Below are positions 45,257 to 56,550 of a stretch of DNA of 64,000 nt, in pieces. A program made the position numbers and the translations under genes. The notes beneath the pieces were generated by a model that ran no database searches, had not been told where the DNA came from, and worked only from the letters and a program-made list of their open reading frames with translations. The first letter of the stretch is position 1. Each line of letters begins with the position of its first letter. Origin of the DNA: Bacteroidota bacterium (GTDB lineage Bacteria; Bacteroidota; Bacteroidia; Flavobacteriales_C; GCA-002722245). The stretch lies in the NCBI GenBank assembly GCA_026390935.1, contig JAPLEZ010000137.1, positions 1 through 64,000 on the forward strand. The letters run 5' to 3'.

Positions 45257-46768
45257 CTAAGCCTCCTCCAACTCCACCACTCTCTCAACACCTACAGAGA
45301 TAGATTTCATAGCACCCATCGCTCCTCTTAATGTTTTACCAATTTGTTCAATCGGATGAGATCTCAAAGCTTCGTTCACACGAACTAGTTCCAAGTTATC
45401 AACTCCATTTCCTTTTCCGGCACCGTATGTTTTACCACAGATATCCGTATCTACTTTTTTCATGAAGTCGGCTAGTAATGGCTTACAAGCATGATCAAAC
45501 AAGTAGCAACCGTATTCCGCTGTATCAGAAATAACACGGTTCATTTCGTGTAATTTTTTACGTGCGATCAAGTTTGCGATCAAAGGAGTTTCGTGCAATG
45601 ACTCATAGTATGCAGATTCTTGTTTGATACCCACCTCTACCATCGATTCGAAAGCCAATTCAACTCCGGCTTTCACCATCGCCACCATCACAACACCGTT
45701 GTCGTAGTATTCTTGCTCAGAAATATTTACATCGCCAGCAGGAGTTTTTTCAAAAGCAGTTTCTCCTGTAGCAGCTCTCCAAGTCAATAAGTTTTTATCG
45801 TCAGCAGCCCAGTCAGCCATCATTGTTGATGAGAAAACACCAGTGATGATGTCATCCATGTGTTTTTGGAACAATGGTCTCATGATTACTTTTAATTCTT
45901 CAGCAACTTTGAATGCTTTCAATTTAGCAGGATTGCTCAAGCGGTCCATCATGTTAGTGATACCACCTTGTTTCAAACCTTCTGTGATAGTTTCCCATCC
46001 GTATTGAATCAATTTAGAAGCATAACCTTTATCGATTCCTTTTTCTACCATTTTGTTGAAGCAAAGGATTGAACCAGTTTGCAACAATCCGCAAAGGATA
46101 GTTTGCTCACCCATCAAATCCGATTTCACCTCAGCAACGAAAGATGATTTCAAAACACCAGCTCTGTCGCCACCTGTACCAGCGCAATATGCTTTTGCGT
46201 AAGCCCAGCCTTTTCCTTCTGGATCATTTTCAGGGTGAACAGCAATTAAGGTTGGTACACCAAATCCTCTTTTGTATTCTTCACGAACTTCAGTGCCTGG
46301 AGACTTAGGAGCCACCATGATTACTGTAATGTCTTTACGGATTTGTGTTCCTTCTTCAACGATATTGAAACCGTGAGAATAAGCCAAAGCCGATCCTTTT
46401 TTCATTAATGGCATTACCGCCGCAACTACTGATGTATGTTGTTTATCAGGAGTAAGGTTGATTACCAAATCAGCAGTAGGAATCATCTCTTTGTATGTTC
46501 CAACAGGAAATTTATTGACAGCTGCATTTTTGTATGATTGACGTTGGTTAGAGATGGCATCATCACGCAAAGCGTATGAAATATCCAAACCTGAATCTCT
46601 TAAGTTCAAACCTTGGTTTAAACCTTGAGCACCGCATCCTACGATGACGATTTTTTTGCCTTTAAGCGCTTTTACACCTTCAGAAAACTCTGAATTGTCC
46701 ATAAACTCACAAGTCCCTAGCTGAGCCAGTTTCTCTCTTTGCGATAAAGTGTTGTAATAATTTGCCAT
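45257..46768 (-). CDS. ilvC: Ketol-acid reductoisomerase
   Basis: [43 protein letters not shown]; 503 aa class II form. Confidence 0.96.
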
Positions 46769-50122: not shown

Positions 50123-51379
50123 TTACACAAAATACTGGAACAAACTAGGATCATCATTGATATCAGTATAATTGATGCCATACTGCTTCATGCGCTCCAA
50201 CAAGCCCTGATAGTCTTCCTTGTTTTTCAACTCTACGCCTATCATTGCCGGACCCGATTCACGCGCGTTTTTCTTCACGTATTCAAATCGGGTGATGTCA
50301 TCATTCGGACCCAAAACTTTAGAAACAAACTCTTTCAATGCTCCCGGACGTTGCGGAAAACGAATGATGAAGAAGTGTTTTAATCCTTCATAAATCAATG
50401 ATCTTTCCTTGATTTCCTGCATGCGATCAATGTCGTTGTTGCTTCCGCTCACCACGCACACAATCGTTTTTCCTTTTATTTGCTCTTTGTAAAAATCTAA
50501 AGCTGCCACCGATAAAGCGCCTGCAGGTTCAACTACAATAGCTTCTTCATTGTACAAACTCAAAATTGTGCTGCACACTTTTCCTTCGGGAACCAAAACC
50601 ACATCGTCAATCAAATCTTTGATGATTGAAAAAGTAATGTCTCCTACTTTTTGAACAGCAGCACCATCTACAAACTTGTCGATTTCTTTCAATTCAATGG
50701 CTTTCCCTTCTTCCAGCGCCTGTTTCAATGCAGGTGCTCCTTTGGGTTCAACGCCAATTAATTTGGTGGTCGGACTCACTTGTTTGTAGTACGAACCCAA
50801 GCCCGAAGCTAGTCCACCACCACCAACTGGAATAAATATATAATCGATGTTCTTTAATTCCTCATTTATTTCTTTGCCCACCGTACCCTGACCTTCAATG
50901 ACTTTAACATCATCAAAAGGATGAATGAATTCCAAGCCCTCTTTTTTACTTACTTCCAATGCCGCTTTGTAGCTATCATCATAAGTATCACCGGTTAAAA
51001 TCACTTCTACCCACTGTTTACCAAACATTTTCACCTTCTCCAGCTTTTGTTTTGGAGTAGTAGACGGCATGTAAACTTTACCATGAATACTTAGTAAATT
51101 ACAGGAATAAGCAAAGCCCTGAGCGTGATTTCCAGCACTGGCACAAATAACTCCTTTGGCCAAAATTTCTTTCGACAAAGACTTGATTTTATTATAAGCA
51201 CCACGAATTTTATAAGAACGAACGATTTGCAAATCTTCTCTTTTGAGATAGACTTCACAAGCGTATTTTTCCGACAAAGCGAGATTTTTTTGCAAAGGTG
51301 TATGCATTGCAACACCCACCAAATTCTCTGCGGCTTTATTTATATTTTCAACACTGATCAATGCCTCTTTTGTTTCCAT
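50123..51379 (-). CDS. ilvA: Threonine ammonia-lyase
   Basis: LKREDLQIVRSYKIRGAYNKI; ASAGNHAQGFAYSC; C-terminal ACT-like domain. Confidence 0.95.
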   Translation of the reverse strand: METKEALISVENINKAAENLVGVAMHTPLQKNLALSEKYACEVYLKREDLQIVRSYKIRGAYNKIKSLSKEILAKGVICASAGNHAQGFAYSCNLLSIHGKVYMPSTTPKQKLEKVKMFGKQWVEVILTGDTYDDSYKAALEVSKKEGLEFIHPFDDVKVIEGQGTVGKEINEELKNIDYIFIPVGGGGLASGLGSYYKQVSPTTKLIGVEPKGAPALKQALEEGKAIELKEIDKFVDGAAVQKVGDITFSIIKDLIDDVVLVPEGKVCSTILSLYNEEAIVVEPAGALSVAALDFYKEQIKGKTIVCVVSGSNNDIDRMQEIKERSLIYEGLKHFFIIRFPQRPGALKEFVSKVLGPNDDITRFEYVKKNARESGPAMIGVELKNKEDYQGLLERMKQYGINYTDINDDPSLFQYFV

Positions 51380-51415: not shown

Positions 51416-51934
51416 TTAGGCTTCTCCTATTTCCTGAAGGTAGTTGTGTAAACTGTACATTGGTTTTGAAACGGCAACTCTTCCAGAGCGAACGAATTCA
51501 AGTATTCCGTGAGGTTCCAAATCTTTAAACAAAGATTTAGTTTCATCTTTTCGTCCGGTTTTTTCAATCGCTATAAAATCTGCGTCAGCATATAAAATCT
51601 TGGCATTGTGTGCTTCCACTATCTCGTTCACTTTCGGACCGGGTTTCATCTTATACAATGCAATTTCACGAGCCACTACTTCATCATCCAAAAAGTACGA
51701 CGCCATCAATACATCCACTAACTTTTCAATTTGCAAAGCTACATTTCTAACGGTATTTTCGGTTCCGTACACCACAATAGTGAAACGGTGAATGCCTTCT
51801 TTTTCCGATTCAGAAGTAGTTAAACTTTCTATGTTAATCTTTCTTCTTGTAAAGATTTGCGTGATCCTGTATAAGATTCCCGAATAGTTCTCTGAAAAAA
51901 CAGAGATCGTATATTTTTTTATTTCTGTGCTCAT
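51416..51934 (-). CDS. ilvN: Acetolactate synthase small subunit
   Basis: ISVFSENYSGILYRITQIFTRRKINIESLTTSESEKEGIHRFTIVV. Confidence 0.94.
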   Translation of the reverse strand: MSTEIKKYTISVFSENYSGILYRITQIFTRRKINIESLTTSESEKEGIHRFTIVVYGTENTVRNVALQIEKLVDVLMASYFLDDEVVAREIALYKMKPGPKVNEIVEAHNAKILYADADFIAIEKTGRKDETKSLFKDLEPHGILEFVRSGRVAVSKPMYSLHNYLQEIGEA

Positions 51935-52007: not shown

Positions 52008-53750
52008 TTACGCTTCTAACTGAATTTCATGAACTGCTTTTCCTTGTGGTATCATAGGGAATACATTTCCTTCCTGCTCAACCATTACCTCTAATAAATA
52101 CGGACCATTGTGGGCCAGCATTTCTTTGATAGCGCTTTCGATCTCTTCTCTCTTTTCAATTTTTTTCGCAGGAATTCCGTAGCCCTGAGAGATCATTACA
52201 AAGTTTGGATTGATCAATTCGGTTTGAGCGTATCTTCTGTCGAAGAACAGCGCCTGCCACTGACGAACCAGTCCTAAGAAATTGTTGTTCAGAATAATGA
52301 TTTTAACCGCAGCATTGGTTTGGAAAATAGTTCCCAATTCCTGAATGGTCATTTGAAAACCACCGTCTCCAATAATAGCTAAAACCTCCTTGTTCGGATT
52401 GGCCATTTTCGCGCCAAAAGCTGCCGGCAAACAAAAGCCCATAGTTCCCAATCCACCTGAAGTCACGTTAGCATTGGTCGTTTCAAATTGGTAGTAACGC
52501 AAACCCATCATTTGGTGCTGACCTACGTCGGTTACCAATATTGCTTGTCCTTTAGTGATATCGCTTAATTTGCGAACAACTTCAGCCATTTTAATTTGCG
52601 GCGTAGAAGGATTCAGCTCTTCTTTTATAACTTTTTCAAACTCAATTTTATCACAAGCCTTAAACTCCTCTAACCACTCTGGATGTTTGTTTCTTTCCAA
52701 TAACGGCAACAAGGCATTTAAAGCCTCCTTTGCATCGGCATGAATAGGAATATGCGCGTGAACGTTTTTACTGATTTCAGATTTATCTAATTCAATGTGG
52801 ATGATCTTAGCTTGCTTCGCATAGGCGTCCAATCTTCCAGTTACACGGTCGTCAAAACGCATCCCAACGGCAATTAATACATCGCATTCGTTGGTTTTCA
52901 TATTCGGACCATAATTACCATGCATACCCAGCATACCTACATACAGTTGGTGACTGCTTGGAATAGCTGATAAACCTAATAAAGTGCTGGCCGCAGGAAT
53001 TCCTGCTTTTTCCATTACGCCCATCAATGCTTCTTGCGCATGCGACAACAATACTCCGTGTCCGCACAAAATAAATGGTTTTTTTGCCCCATTGATAGCT
53101 GCAGCAGCTTGTTTAACCTGCTCCATATTTAATACAGGCTTAGGCTGATAAGAACGAATATGCGTACATTTTTTATACTCAAATTCGAAAACCTCAAACA
53201 AAGCGTTTTTAGTAATATCAATCAATACCGGACCCGGTCGGCCTGAATTAGCAATATAAAATGCTTTAGCTATAGCACCTGGAATTTCAGAAGCTTTAGT
53301 CACCTGAAATGACCATTTGGTAACTGGTGCAGCGATGCCAATAATATCGGTTTCCTGAAAAGCATCGGTACCCAATAAATGTGCTCCAACCTGACCGGTA
53401 ATACAAACCATAGGAGTTGAATCAATCATAGCATCAGCGATGCCAGTAATTAGGTTCGTTGCTCCTGGACCCGATGTTGCAATAGCAACTGCTGTTGTAT
53501 TGGTTGTTCTTGAATACCCTTCAGCGGCATGAGTGGCACCTTGTTCGTGGCGCACCAATACGTGGTGGATCTTATCTTGATACTTATACAATTCATCATA
53601 CAAAGGCATAATAGCGCCTCCGGGATAACCAAACACAATGTTGATTCCCTCTTCCAGTAACGAAAGTACTACTGCTTCCGATCCGCTAATAGTTTTGGTT
53701 TTCATCGATTTTTCAGTTTTCAGTTTTTCCTTTTCCATTGTTAATTCCAT
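52008..53750 (-). CDS. ilvB: Acetolactate synthase large subunit
   Basis: VFGYPGGAIMPLYDELY; HEQGATHAAEGYSR; GDGGFQMTIQELGT; RBS AAAGGGG before the start. Confidence 0.96.
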   Translation of the reverse strand: MELTMEKEKLKTEKSMKTKTISGSEAVVLSLLEEGINIVFGYPGGAIMPLYDELYKYQDKIHHVLVRHEQGATHAAEGYSRTTNTTAVAIATSGPGATNLITGIADAMIDSTPMVCITGQVGAHLLGTDAFQETDIIGIAAPVTKWSFQVTKASEIPGAIAKAFYIANSGRPGPVLIDITKNALFEVFEFEYKKCTHIRSYQPKPVLNMEQVKQAAAAINGAKKPFILCGHGVLLSHAQEALMGVMEKAGIPAASTLLGLSAIPSSHQLYVGMLGMHGNYGPNMKTNECDVLIAVGMRFDDRVTGRLDAYAKQAKIIHIELDKSEISKNVHAHIPIHADAKEALNALLPLLERNKHPEWLEEFKACDKIEFEKVIKEELNPSTPQIKMAEVVRKLSDITKGQAILVTDVGQHQMMGLRYYQFETTNANVTSGGLGTMGFCLPAAFGAKMANPNKEVLAIIGDGGFQMTIQELGTIFQTNAAVKIIILNNNFLGLVRQWQALFFDRRYAQTELINPNFVMISQGYGIPAKKIEKREEIESAIKEMLAHNGPYLLEVMVEQEGNVFPMIPQGKAVHEIQLEA

Positions 53751-53767
53751 ACCCCTTTAGATTAAAA

Positions 53768-53794
53768 AAGCCTTTCTCAAATTGAGAAAGGCTT
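53768..53794 (-). terminator. Attenuator terminator in the ilvB leader
   Basis: Minus strand AAGCCTTTCTCAATTTGAGAAAGGCTTTTTT: perfect stem plus U-tract, ~18 nt upstream of the ilvB start. Confidence 0.92.
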
Positions 53795-53795
53795 A

Positions 53796-53877
53796 TCTTT
53801 TAAAAATAGCGTCTTTCTCATCTCCTTTAGGAGACTACCACCACGACGCTAATAATATTTTTAGTACTTGTTTTCAT
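53796..53877 (-). promoter_or_regulatory. Ribosome-mediated transcription attenuator (antiterminator region)
   Basis: TAGCGTC (in leader codons) pairs with GACGCTA; GAGAAAG (53813-53819) can pair with CTTTCTC (53784-53790), the 5' half of the terminator. Confidence 0.85.
53827..53877 (-). CDS. ilvL: ilvBN operon leader peptide (MKTSTKNIISVVVVVS)
   Basis: 16-aa ORF with Ile-Ile and five consecutive Val codons, immediately upstream of alternative hairpins and ilvB. Confidence 0.88.
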   Translation of the reverse strand: MKTSTKNIISVVVVVS

Positions 53878-54035
53878 TTCAGTTCACAATATTAAGAAAA
53901 GTATCCATCGCTTTCAGCAAAACAATCTTTTATTTTTTCAATTATTCCGAAACACAAAGTTGCATTTACTCTCCATTACTCAATAAAAACAATGGATTCC
54001 GAAGAAAGGCCATGTGTGATTCAAAGCGAAAAACC

Positions 54036-54842
54036 TCACTTTACCTTGTAATACTTCAGCGCTTCAGGCAAGTACATGGTTATTTCTTGAATTCTTTTTT
54101 CATCACTTGGATGCGTGCTGAGCAGCTCTGGTGGCTTGGCTCCCGACTTTTCTGACATTCGCTTCCAAAAATCAACTGCAACTCTCGGATCGTATCCGGC
54201 CATTGCAGCGAAAACCAATCCCAGCTTATCTGCTTCCAATTCATGCTGACGAGAGTAGGCCAACATCCCCAATTGCGATGCAGCTCCATAAGATTGCATA
54301 AACAAATATTGAGTTGCAGGAGCCTTTGCATCCAGTGCAATTTGCAATACCTTTGCTCCTGCTTGAATTGCCAATGCTTCACTCATCCGCTCATTTCCAT
54401 GACGCGCAACAGCGTGACCAATTTCGTGACCCATAACAATAGCTAAACTAGCATCATCACCGGTAATAGGCAGTAATCCTGTATACACCACAACTTTACC
54501 ACCTGGCATGCACCACGCATTTATTGTTTTGTCATCAACTACATTGAATTCCCAAGCATATCCATTCAATCTAGCACTCATGGCCTTGGAAGCAAAATAA
54601 CTTTCTACCGCTGCTTGAATTTTAGCACCAACCCTTTGCACCTGCTGAGTGCGCTCGTCGGAAGTCGGCAAAACAGAATTGGCCTTTAGAAAGCTACTGT
54701 ATTGAGTTAAACTCATAGCGATGAGCTCCGATTCGGGAACTAAACTGACTTGTCTTCTATTGGTAATAGGAACCCTTTCGATGCAAGCAAAAAAAATCGT
54801 TGCTCCACAAAGGAGCAACGACCATTTAAATATTGATTTCAT
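54036..54842 (-). CDS. M48-family metallopeptidase lipoprotein
   Basis: Lipobox-like ATIFFACIE; zinc motif GHEIGHAVARHGNERM. Confidence 0.9.
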   Translation of the reverse strand: MKSIFKWSLLLCGATIFFACIERVPITNRRQVSLVPESELIAMSLTQYSSFLKANSVLPTSDERTQQVQRVGAKIQAAVESYFASKAMSARLNGYAWEFNVVDDKTINAWCMPGGKVVVYTGLLPITGDDASLAIVMGHEIGHAVARHGNERMSEALAIQAGAKVLQIALDAKAPATQYLFMQSYGAASQLGMLAYSRQHELEADKLGLVFAAMAGYDPRVAVDFWKRMSEKSGAKPPELLSTHPSDEKRIQEITMYLPEALKYYKVK

Positions 54843-54849
54843 TTTTCGA

Positions 54850-56550
54850 TTATAAATCAGTTACACATCCTTCTGATGCTGGACCTACACATTTTGCGTA
54901 TTTGTATAGCACGCCACTTGTTGGACCAGCCTTTGGTTTCCACACCGCACGTCGCTTAGCGATTTCTTCATCAGAAATTTTAGCGTCAATTTTATTGGCT
55001 ACCGCATCAATACGAATGATATCACCGTCTTTTAGTAAGCCAATTAAACCACCTTCTTGTGCTTCAGGACAAATATGCCCTACCATGAATCCATGTGACC
55101 CACCACTAAAGCGTCCGTCAGTAATCAAAGCAACGTCTTTTCCCAGACCTTTACCCATAACAGCAGAAGTCGGTTTAAGCATTTCGGGCATTTCCGGTCC
55201 GCCTTTAGGCCCTTCATAACGGATTACAATAACATTTCCTTTTTTCACTTTACCGTTTAATATACCAGCACTTGCAGCAAACTCATCATCAAACACTACT
55301 GCCGGACCTTCAAACAACTCACCTTCTTTACCTGTAATTTTTGCTACAGATCCTTTCTCTGCTAGATTTCCGTAAAGAATTCTGATGTGACCTGTTTCTT
55401 TTAAAGGCTTGTCAAAAGGCATTATTAAATCTTGTCCTTCAGTTAAAGAAGGAACTTCAGCTAAGTTTTCTGCCAATGTTTTACCTGTTACGGTCATGCA
55501 ATCTCCATGTAACATTCCTTTTTCCAACAACAACTTCATTACTGCAGGCACACCGCCAATGGCGTGCAAATCCTGCATCAAGTATTTACCGCTTGGTTTT
55601 AAATCAGCCAAGAAAGGAGTAGTATCACTCATTTTTTGGAAATCATCCAAATTCAATGGAACATCTACTGCTTTGGCCATAGCTATCAAATGCAAGACAG
55701 CATTAGTAGATCCACCAAGGATAACAATTACACGCATTGCGTTTTCAAAAGCTTTACGAGTCATGATGTCACGAGGCTTGATGTCTTTCTCCATCAGGTT
55801 TCTGATAGCAGCACCAACTCTTGCTAATTCAGCTTCTTTTTCTTTGCTCAAAGCAGGAGCTGAAGAGCTAAAAGGCAAACTCATGCCCATAGCTTCAATT
55901 GCAGAAGACATGGTGTTGGCAGTGTACATACCACCGCAAGCACCTGCACCCGGACAAGAATTTTTTATAATTCCTTTAAAATCTGCGTCACTCAAATTTC
56001 CGTTTACTTTTTCACCCAAAGCCTCAAAAGCCGAAATGATGTTTAAAGTTTTACCGCAGTAGTTTCCTCCTGCGATAGAACCCCCATACACCAATATTGA
56101 CGGACGATTCAAACGACCCAAAGCAATCATTGCTCCCGGCATATTTTTGTCGCATCCTACGATTGGAATTACCGCATCGTAAAATTGCGCCTGCACAACT
56201 GTTTCAATAGAATCAGCAATAATATCACGGGACACCAATGAATATTTCATTCCTGTTGTACCGTTAGAAATACCATCACTTACACCAATGGTGTGAAAGA
56301 CTAAACCAACCAAATTTGACTTTACTACGCTTTTTTTCACTTCAGTGGCAAAACCATTCAAGTGCATGTTACAAGTATTTCCTTCGTAACCTGTACTCAC
56401 AATGCCCACCTGAGCTTTGCTCATGTCTTCATCGGTTAAACCTACTCCATACAGCATGGCCTGAGAGGCTGGCTGAGTTGGATCTTGTGTAATTGTTTTG
56501 CTGTGATGATTGAGTTCTTTCAACATGTGTATCTTTTTAATGAAGTACAA
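54850..56550 (-). CDS. ilvD: Dihydroxy-acid dehydratase
   Basis: [57 protein letters not shown]. The likely start is the internal [10 protein letters not shown]. Confidence 0.96.

Follow-up and report, generated by a model that had tools for sequence, protein, structure and literature searches.

A putative ribosome-mediated transcription attenuator with a valine-rich leader peptide upstream of ilvB in the Bacteroidota

Introduction

Ribosome-mediated attenuation of branched-chain amino acid (BCAA) synthesis is typified by the E. coli ilvB (ivbL) and ilvGMEDA attenuators, in which a Val-rich leader peptide is combined with the helices 1:2, 2:3 and 3:4 and a terminator before the acetolactate synthase gene. 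For enterobacterial attenuators, the choice between the competing helices is accepted to be kinetic. The locus described here shares this layout of leader, helices and terminator, but has a shorter peptide in which Val forms only one run, lacks Shine-Dalgarno initiation and belongs to another phylum, and no sequence relation between the two is expected. The ilvBNC genes of C. glutamicum likewise carry a BCAA leader peptide, a terminator, an antiterminator and an anti-antiterminator before ilvB, with translation beginning one nucleotide from the start of the transcript, but differ from the present locus in belonging to the Actinobacteria and in having Leu and Val control codons and overlapping hairpins (PMC11857589).

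Within the Bacteroidota, Bacteroid-trp (RF01692) is also a leader-peptide attenuator, but one that senses Trp and precedes trp genes. In Flavobacterium psychrophilum (Flavobacteriaceae), transcript maps strongly suggest that leader peptides attenuate amino-acid operons, with pheA and hisG elements being named; the main text names no ilv element, and the passages considered here contain no test of mutual exclusion or covariation, unlike the present analysis (PMC9723704). The literature searched held no paper on ilv attenuation in Bacteroidota; some of the leaders may be listed in two older comparative studies cited in PMC4833913, those of Lopatovskaya et al. 2010 and Lyubetsky et al. 2007. The mechanism is a textbook one, and none of the Rfam families matched the ilv leaders examined here.

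Structure of the leader region

The DNA analysed here is a single 64-kb stretch (the window) from a member of the Bacteroidota, in which the leader ORF, the protector hairpin 1:2, the antiterminator 2:3 and the terminator 3:4 all lie within positions 53877-53764 of the minus strand. The putative leader ORF (53827-53877, start ATG at 53877) encodes a peptide of 16 aa, MKTSTKNIISVVVVVS, and is rich in codons for a product of the pathway, as it contains five consecutive Val codons (GTC GTG GTG GTA GTC, 53847-53833) before the stop codon TAA (53829-53827). Segment 1 (TAGCGTC, 53845-53851), formed by Ile-Ser-Val codons, is the 5' arm of the protector hairpin, which overlaps the control codons; this arm pairs with GACGCTA (53813-53807) of segment 2 (TGAGAAAGACGCTA, 53807-53820). 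The core of segment 2, TGAGAAAG (53820-53813), overlaps GACGCTA and provides the alternative pairing with segment 3 (AAGCCTTTCTCA, 53783-53794), where the antiterminator comprises 11 pairs between TGAGAAAG..GCT and AGCCTTTCTCA, longer than first noted. Segment 3, with the core GCCTTTCTCA (53792-53783), may instead pair with segment 4 (TGAGAAAGGCTT plus T-run, 53764-53779), the core of which is TGAGAAAGGC (53779-53770), followed by six T residues. Segments 3 and 4 together make up an intrinsic terminator of a 12-pair stem and a T-run (53794-53764), located between the leader ORF and ilvB, the first structural gene. The T-run ends at 53764, 13 nt 5' of the earliest possible ATG of ilvB (53750), and the leader stop codon is separated from this ATG by 76 nt. 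On re-reading, the sequence and coordinates given for the leader ORF in an earlier sequence-only reading matched letter for letter, and its four segments and their pairings were found where it had placed them. That reading also mentioned an RBS for ilvB, but one of the Shine-Dalgarno type is not expected, as classical Shine-Dalgarno sequences are absent from Bacteroidota mRNAs (PMC7366714).

The genes around the element were named by NCBIfam model matches above cut-off, and all of the ilv genes lie on the minus strand. The first gene predicted to be controlled is ilvB, encoding the acetolactate synthase large subunit (52008-53750, TIGR00118), which is followed by ilvN (small subunit, 51416-51934, TIGR00119) and ilvA (threonine ammonia-lyase, 50123-51379, TIGR02079), while ilvC (ketol-acid reductoisomerase, 45257-46768, NF003557) lies further downstream and is a putative member of the same transcript. 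The gene ilvD (dihydroxy-acid dehydratase, 54850-56520, TIGR00110) lies upstream of the attenuator, with a gene for an M48-family peptidase (54036-54842) between them, and would thus be outside attenuator control.

Modelled switching

Partition functions were computed with the bases covered by the ribosome forbidden from pairing, the footprint being assumed to reach 15 nt downstream, counting from the A-site codon's first base. For ribosomes with Val codon 1, 3 or 5 in the A site, the modelled probability of 2:3 is 0.93-0.97 as long as no more than 8 nt of segment 4 have been transcribed, which agrees with the proposal of the sequence-only reading that stalling on the Val run masks segment 1 and frees segment 2 for segment 3. 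For a ribosome placed at the stop codon, where it covers segment 2, the probability of 2:3 falls to about 0 and the terminator forms in the model, and in the ribosome-free full transcript the probabilities of 1:2 and 3:4 are 0.95 and 0.97, respectively. The three ribosome states thus give the mutually exclusive helices that had been predicted. In the complete transcript, the modelled terminator outcompetes 2:3 even with a stalled ribosome, so that the choice between 2:3 and 3:4 would have to be kinetic.

The folding energy of the leader, which folds as a whole into 1:2 plus the terminator, is 4.1 standard deviations below that of dinucleotide shuffles, with none of 200 shuffles reaching it. 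When the 220 nt preceding the terminator are shuffled, a comparable ORF with a BCAA run appears in 0.5% of cases. The 3.76-Mb genome contains 30 strings of five consecutive GTN codons, of which only that of the leader is part of a short ORF with an ATG start and a terminator behind it; the other 29 were ruled out as leaders on this ground, including one near leuA which is inside another reading frame and lacks a short ORF or terminator. No leader of the ilvB type was found upstream of leuA.

Conservation in the genus and across the phylum

Each of the five species sampled in the genus, the source species among them, keeps the Val-run leader, the other four carrying MKISTKNIISVVVVVS, MKRSIQNISVVVVVSLRR, MNTKNNNIIVVVVSSLG and MNFLNNNISVVVVSSLG in the same place. 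Length changes in and before the Val run stay in-frame, and the stop codon shifts yet remains just before or inside segment 2, with the alternative helices retained alongside the leader. The gene directly upstream of the attenuator is that of the M48 peptidase in two species (including the source) and ilvD in three. In two more distant members of the genus, the 2:3 duplex taken singly is not better than shuffles (p 0.21-0.22). Leaders of a sister genus have a weaker BCAA content. In four of its loci (L007, L008, L010 and L011), the DNA between ilvD and ilvB holds a short ORF and a hairpin resembling a terminator, and the short ORFs of L007 and L008 have few BCAA codons, e.g. MNRLSAGFFDVFSIF. 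In the DNA directly upstream of ilvD in L031, no BCAA leader was found, only the end of a response-regulator gene with its terminator, and a match in this region was discarded as being that gene end.

At the level of the phylum, leader and terminator are kept at 45 of 97 ilvB loci, comprising 44 BCAA-rich leaders and one member of the sister genus added by hand. The remaining 52 loci were not scored as absences, because in many of them the retrieved DNA does not reach the start of ilvD or ilvD is preceded by another gene. Ile/Val-rich leaders with a terminator occur in Flavobacteriaceae, Cytophagales and Saprospiraceae; most of them precede ilvD, the first gene of the relatives' cluster (ilvD-ilvB-ilvN-ilvC-ilvA). 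Examples are MKKQILNIVSIIIVVIISQR (Lacinutrix MAG), MIKQFVNIISIIVVIVIITT (Polaribacter), MLQNIIVNIVSIIVVIREHR (Cytophagales MAG), MPILVVITIIVIIVIVQWRG (Flammeovirgaceae MAG) and MKFNLHIVNIISIVIIHKE (Saprospiraceae MAG). The leader ORF and its pairing are thus kept within the genus, with analogous leaders in three order-level groups of Bacteroidota, and the lack of conservation that the sequence-only reading had named as refuting it was not observed. The Val/Ile control suggested there needs one qualification: the control codons of the genus are mainly Val, and mixed Ile/Val runs occur in the phylum at large. In the family of the source organism, the predicted position of the attenuator between ilvD and ilvB, which would leave ilvD uncontrolled, is a less expected arrangement.

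Runs of at least four V/I/L residues are present in 38 of the 45 leaders against 0.99 expected from shuffles; these leaders were selected partly by BCAA content, and chance across all 97 loci would still give only about two such runs. An N-I/V-I/V-S-like motif is common to 34 of the 45 leaders, and NIIS of the source-genome leader matches this pattern. In L110, the codons of the motif form segment 1, where AATATCATTTC pairs with GGAATGGTATT of segment 2. In L046 (718-777, minus strand) and L110 (684-743, minus strand), a SAM-II riboswitch (RF01726) was observed at a distance of a few hundred bases upstream from the ilv leader, on the strand opposite to it. Among ten further class-level relatives, a simple filter on the DNA upstream of ilvD picked out one with a convincing leader (L157: MIALHTSINLAILHIIRVVVVSSGM, followed by a terminator), so outside the sampled families the leader may be either patchy or missed.

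In every one of the 45 leaders, the best 2:3 duplex starts between -12 and +5 nt relative to the end of the stop codon, and in 25 of them it is better than dinucleotide shuffles at p<0.05; the phylogenetic relatedness of the loci inflates the pooled Fisher value (8e-25). In a stricter test, the leaders were grouped by segment-3 sequence into eight classes (CTTTCTC, CATTCT, TGTATC, CTTCC, CCCTTC and others), and the true pairing of these classes with their segment-2 regions was the best of 40,320 permutations. Segment 2 thus changes with segment 3, though it lies outside the terminator, and the two segments covary across lineages.

Promoter and transcript start

A predicted -7 promoter box (TAATATTG, consensus TAnnTTTG, 53887-53894, minus strand) lies 9 nt before the leader ATG. 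A 5' UTR of about 5 nt is predicted for the source-genome leader and one of about 12 nt for two members of the genus. Across the set of 45 leaders, the TTTG/TTG part of the Bacteroidota -7 box is most often found 8-9 nt ahead of the start codon (21 leaders), and a second TTG cluster is located 33-37 nt ahead of it. As the F. psychrophilum box is placed at -12 to -5 (PMC9723704), a 5' UTR of 4-6 nt is predicted for most Flavobacteriaceae leaders. Many of the leader ORFs are therefore predicted to begin about 0-6 nt from the transcript start, which is less expected: leaderless mRNAs amount to 5.5% in F. psychrophilum (PMC9723704), and 5' UTRs shorter than 10 nt to about 3.7% in B. thetaiotaomicron (PMC7366714). 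In S. meliloti, the trpL leader peptide begins at or adjoining the transcript start (PMC7298713). A sigma-70 promoter scan saw none near the leader, the sigma-70 model being ill-suited to Bacteroidota.

Other leaders in the genome and Rfam families

Upstream of hisG (G000:C17; L144, minus strand), the same genome encodes a His leader, MNFSVHHHHENNSGQ, followed by a strong terminator, and upstream of trpE (G000:C134; L146, about 1303-1430) a Trp leader, MINQQVNIWRWQNSESVWL, with a terminator. The trpE leader is preceded by TATATTTG-CAAC-ATG, a -7 box predicting a leaderless start, and Trp-rich counterparts such as MNKQITIWRWQVSESVWL and MNLTKHNSWWWHSL occur in relatives (L162, L164, L166 and L167). 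The His and Trp leaders support a general use of leader-peptide attenuation by this organism.

At gathering score, no Rfam family matched in the 64-kb window, T-box and riboswitch families included, or in the ilv leaders of eight relatives. The highest-scoring model on the leader is Bacteroid-trp, with a full-length match of 27 bits (E 0.67) against a gathering cut-off of 49, which does not support membership of this family. In the source genome, this model gave no match at E up to 1, leaving the genome's own trpE leader undetected.

Proposed mechanism and alternative explanations

The element is very probably a ribosome-mediated transcription attenuator of the trp/ilv type, through which the supply of charged valyl-tRNA would govern ilvB-ilvN-ilvA. 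Under valine shortage, the leading ribosome would stall on the five Val codons and mask segment 1, so that segment 2 could pair with segment 3 before segment 4 exists and RNA polymerase would continue into ilvB. With ample valine, it would reach the stop codon and cover segment 2, and 3:4 would form and stop transcription. If the leader is not translated, 1:2 would form and 3:4 would terminate.

Terminators before genes often close the preceding unit, and with the M48 gene and ilvD upstream, the hairpin could be a mere terminator of their transcript, ilvB having its own promoter and the short ORF being incidental. This is very unlikely, as a -7 box stands at a conserved spacing before the leader ORF, the Val run, segment 2 and 1:2 are retained while the upstream gene varies between species, and segments 2 and 3 covary. 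The leader ORF might otherwise act chiefly on the translation of ilvB by coupling or reinitiation, since leader genes near structural genes may raise expression through reinitiation (PMC4833913); the stop-to-ATG gap noted above, with an intrinsic terminator inside it, greatly exceeds the peak at 11-14 bp in Bacteroidetes (PMC4833913) and makes this explanation highly improbable.

An additional factor would be compatible with the present data, and the 5' RNA might thus be sensed by a protein or metabolite, as in protein-dependent antitermination or a riboswitch, the peptide being secondary. The lack of Rfam matches at gathering score in the window and in the relatives' leaders argues against this, as do the conserved features themselves, namely BCAA codons and alternative helices that differ in sequence, and such sensing is hardly credible as the main mode of control. 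Attenuation by the translating ribosome is thus the preferred reading.

Implications

A broader reading is quite possible, though it is offered only tentatively: the leaders may represent undescribed BCAA attenuators found throughout the Bacteroidota, with near-leaderless ORFs (0-6 nt), of which the element of one family lies within the operon and leaves ilvD uncontrolled. With such a start, the first ribosome would load as the RNA emerges, without a classical Shine-Dalgarno sequence. The present analysis brings evidence at the level of covariation for classic attenuation of BCAA synthesis in Bacteroidota, where initiation is Shine-Dalgarno-free. The absence of an Rfam family, together with the simple codon signature, would permit the annotation of many such leaders. 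As attenuation needs a ribosome close behind the polymerase, these leaders would allow transcription-translation coupling to be tested directly in the Bacteroidota.
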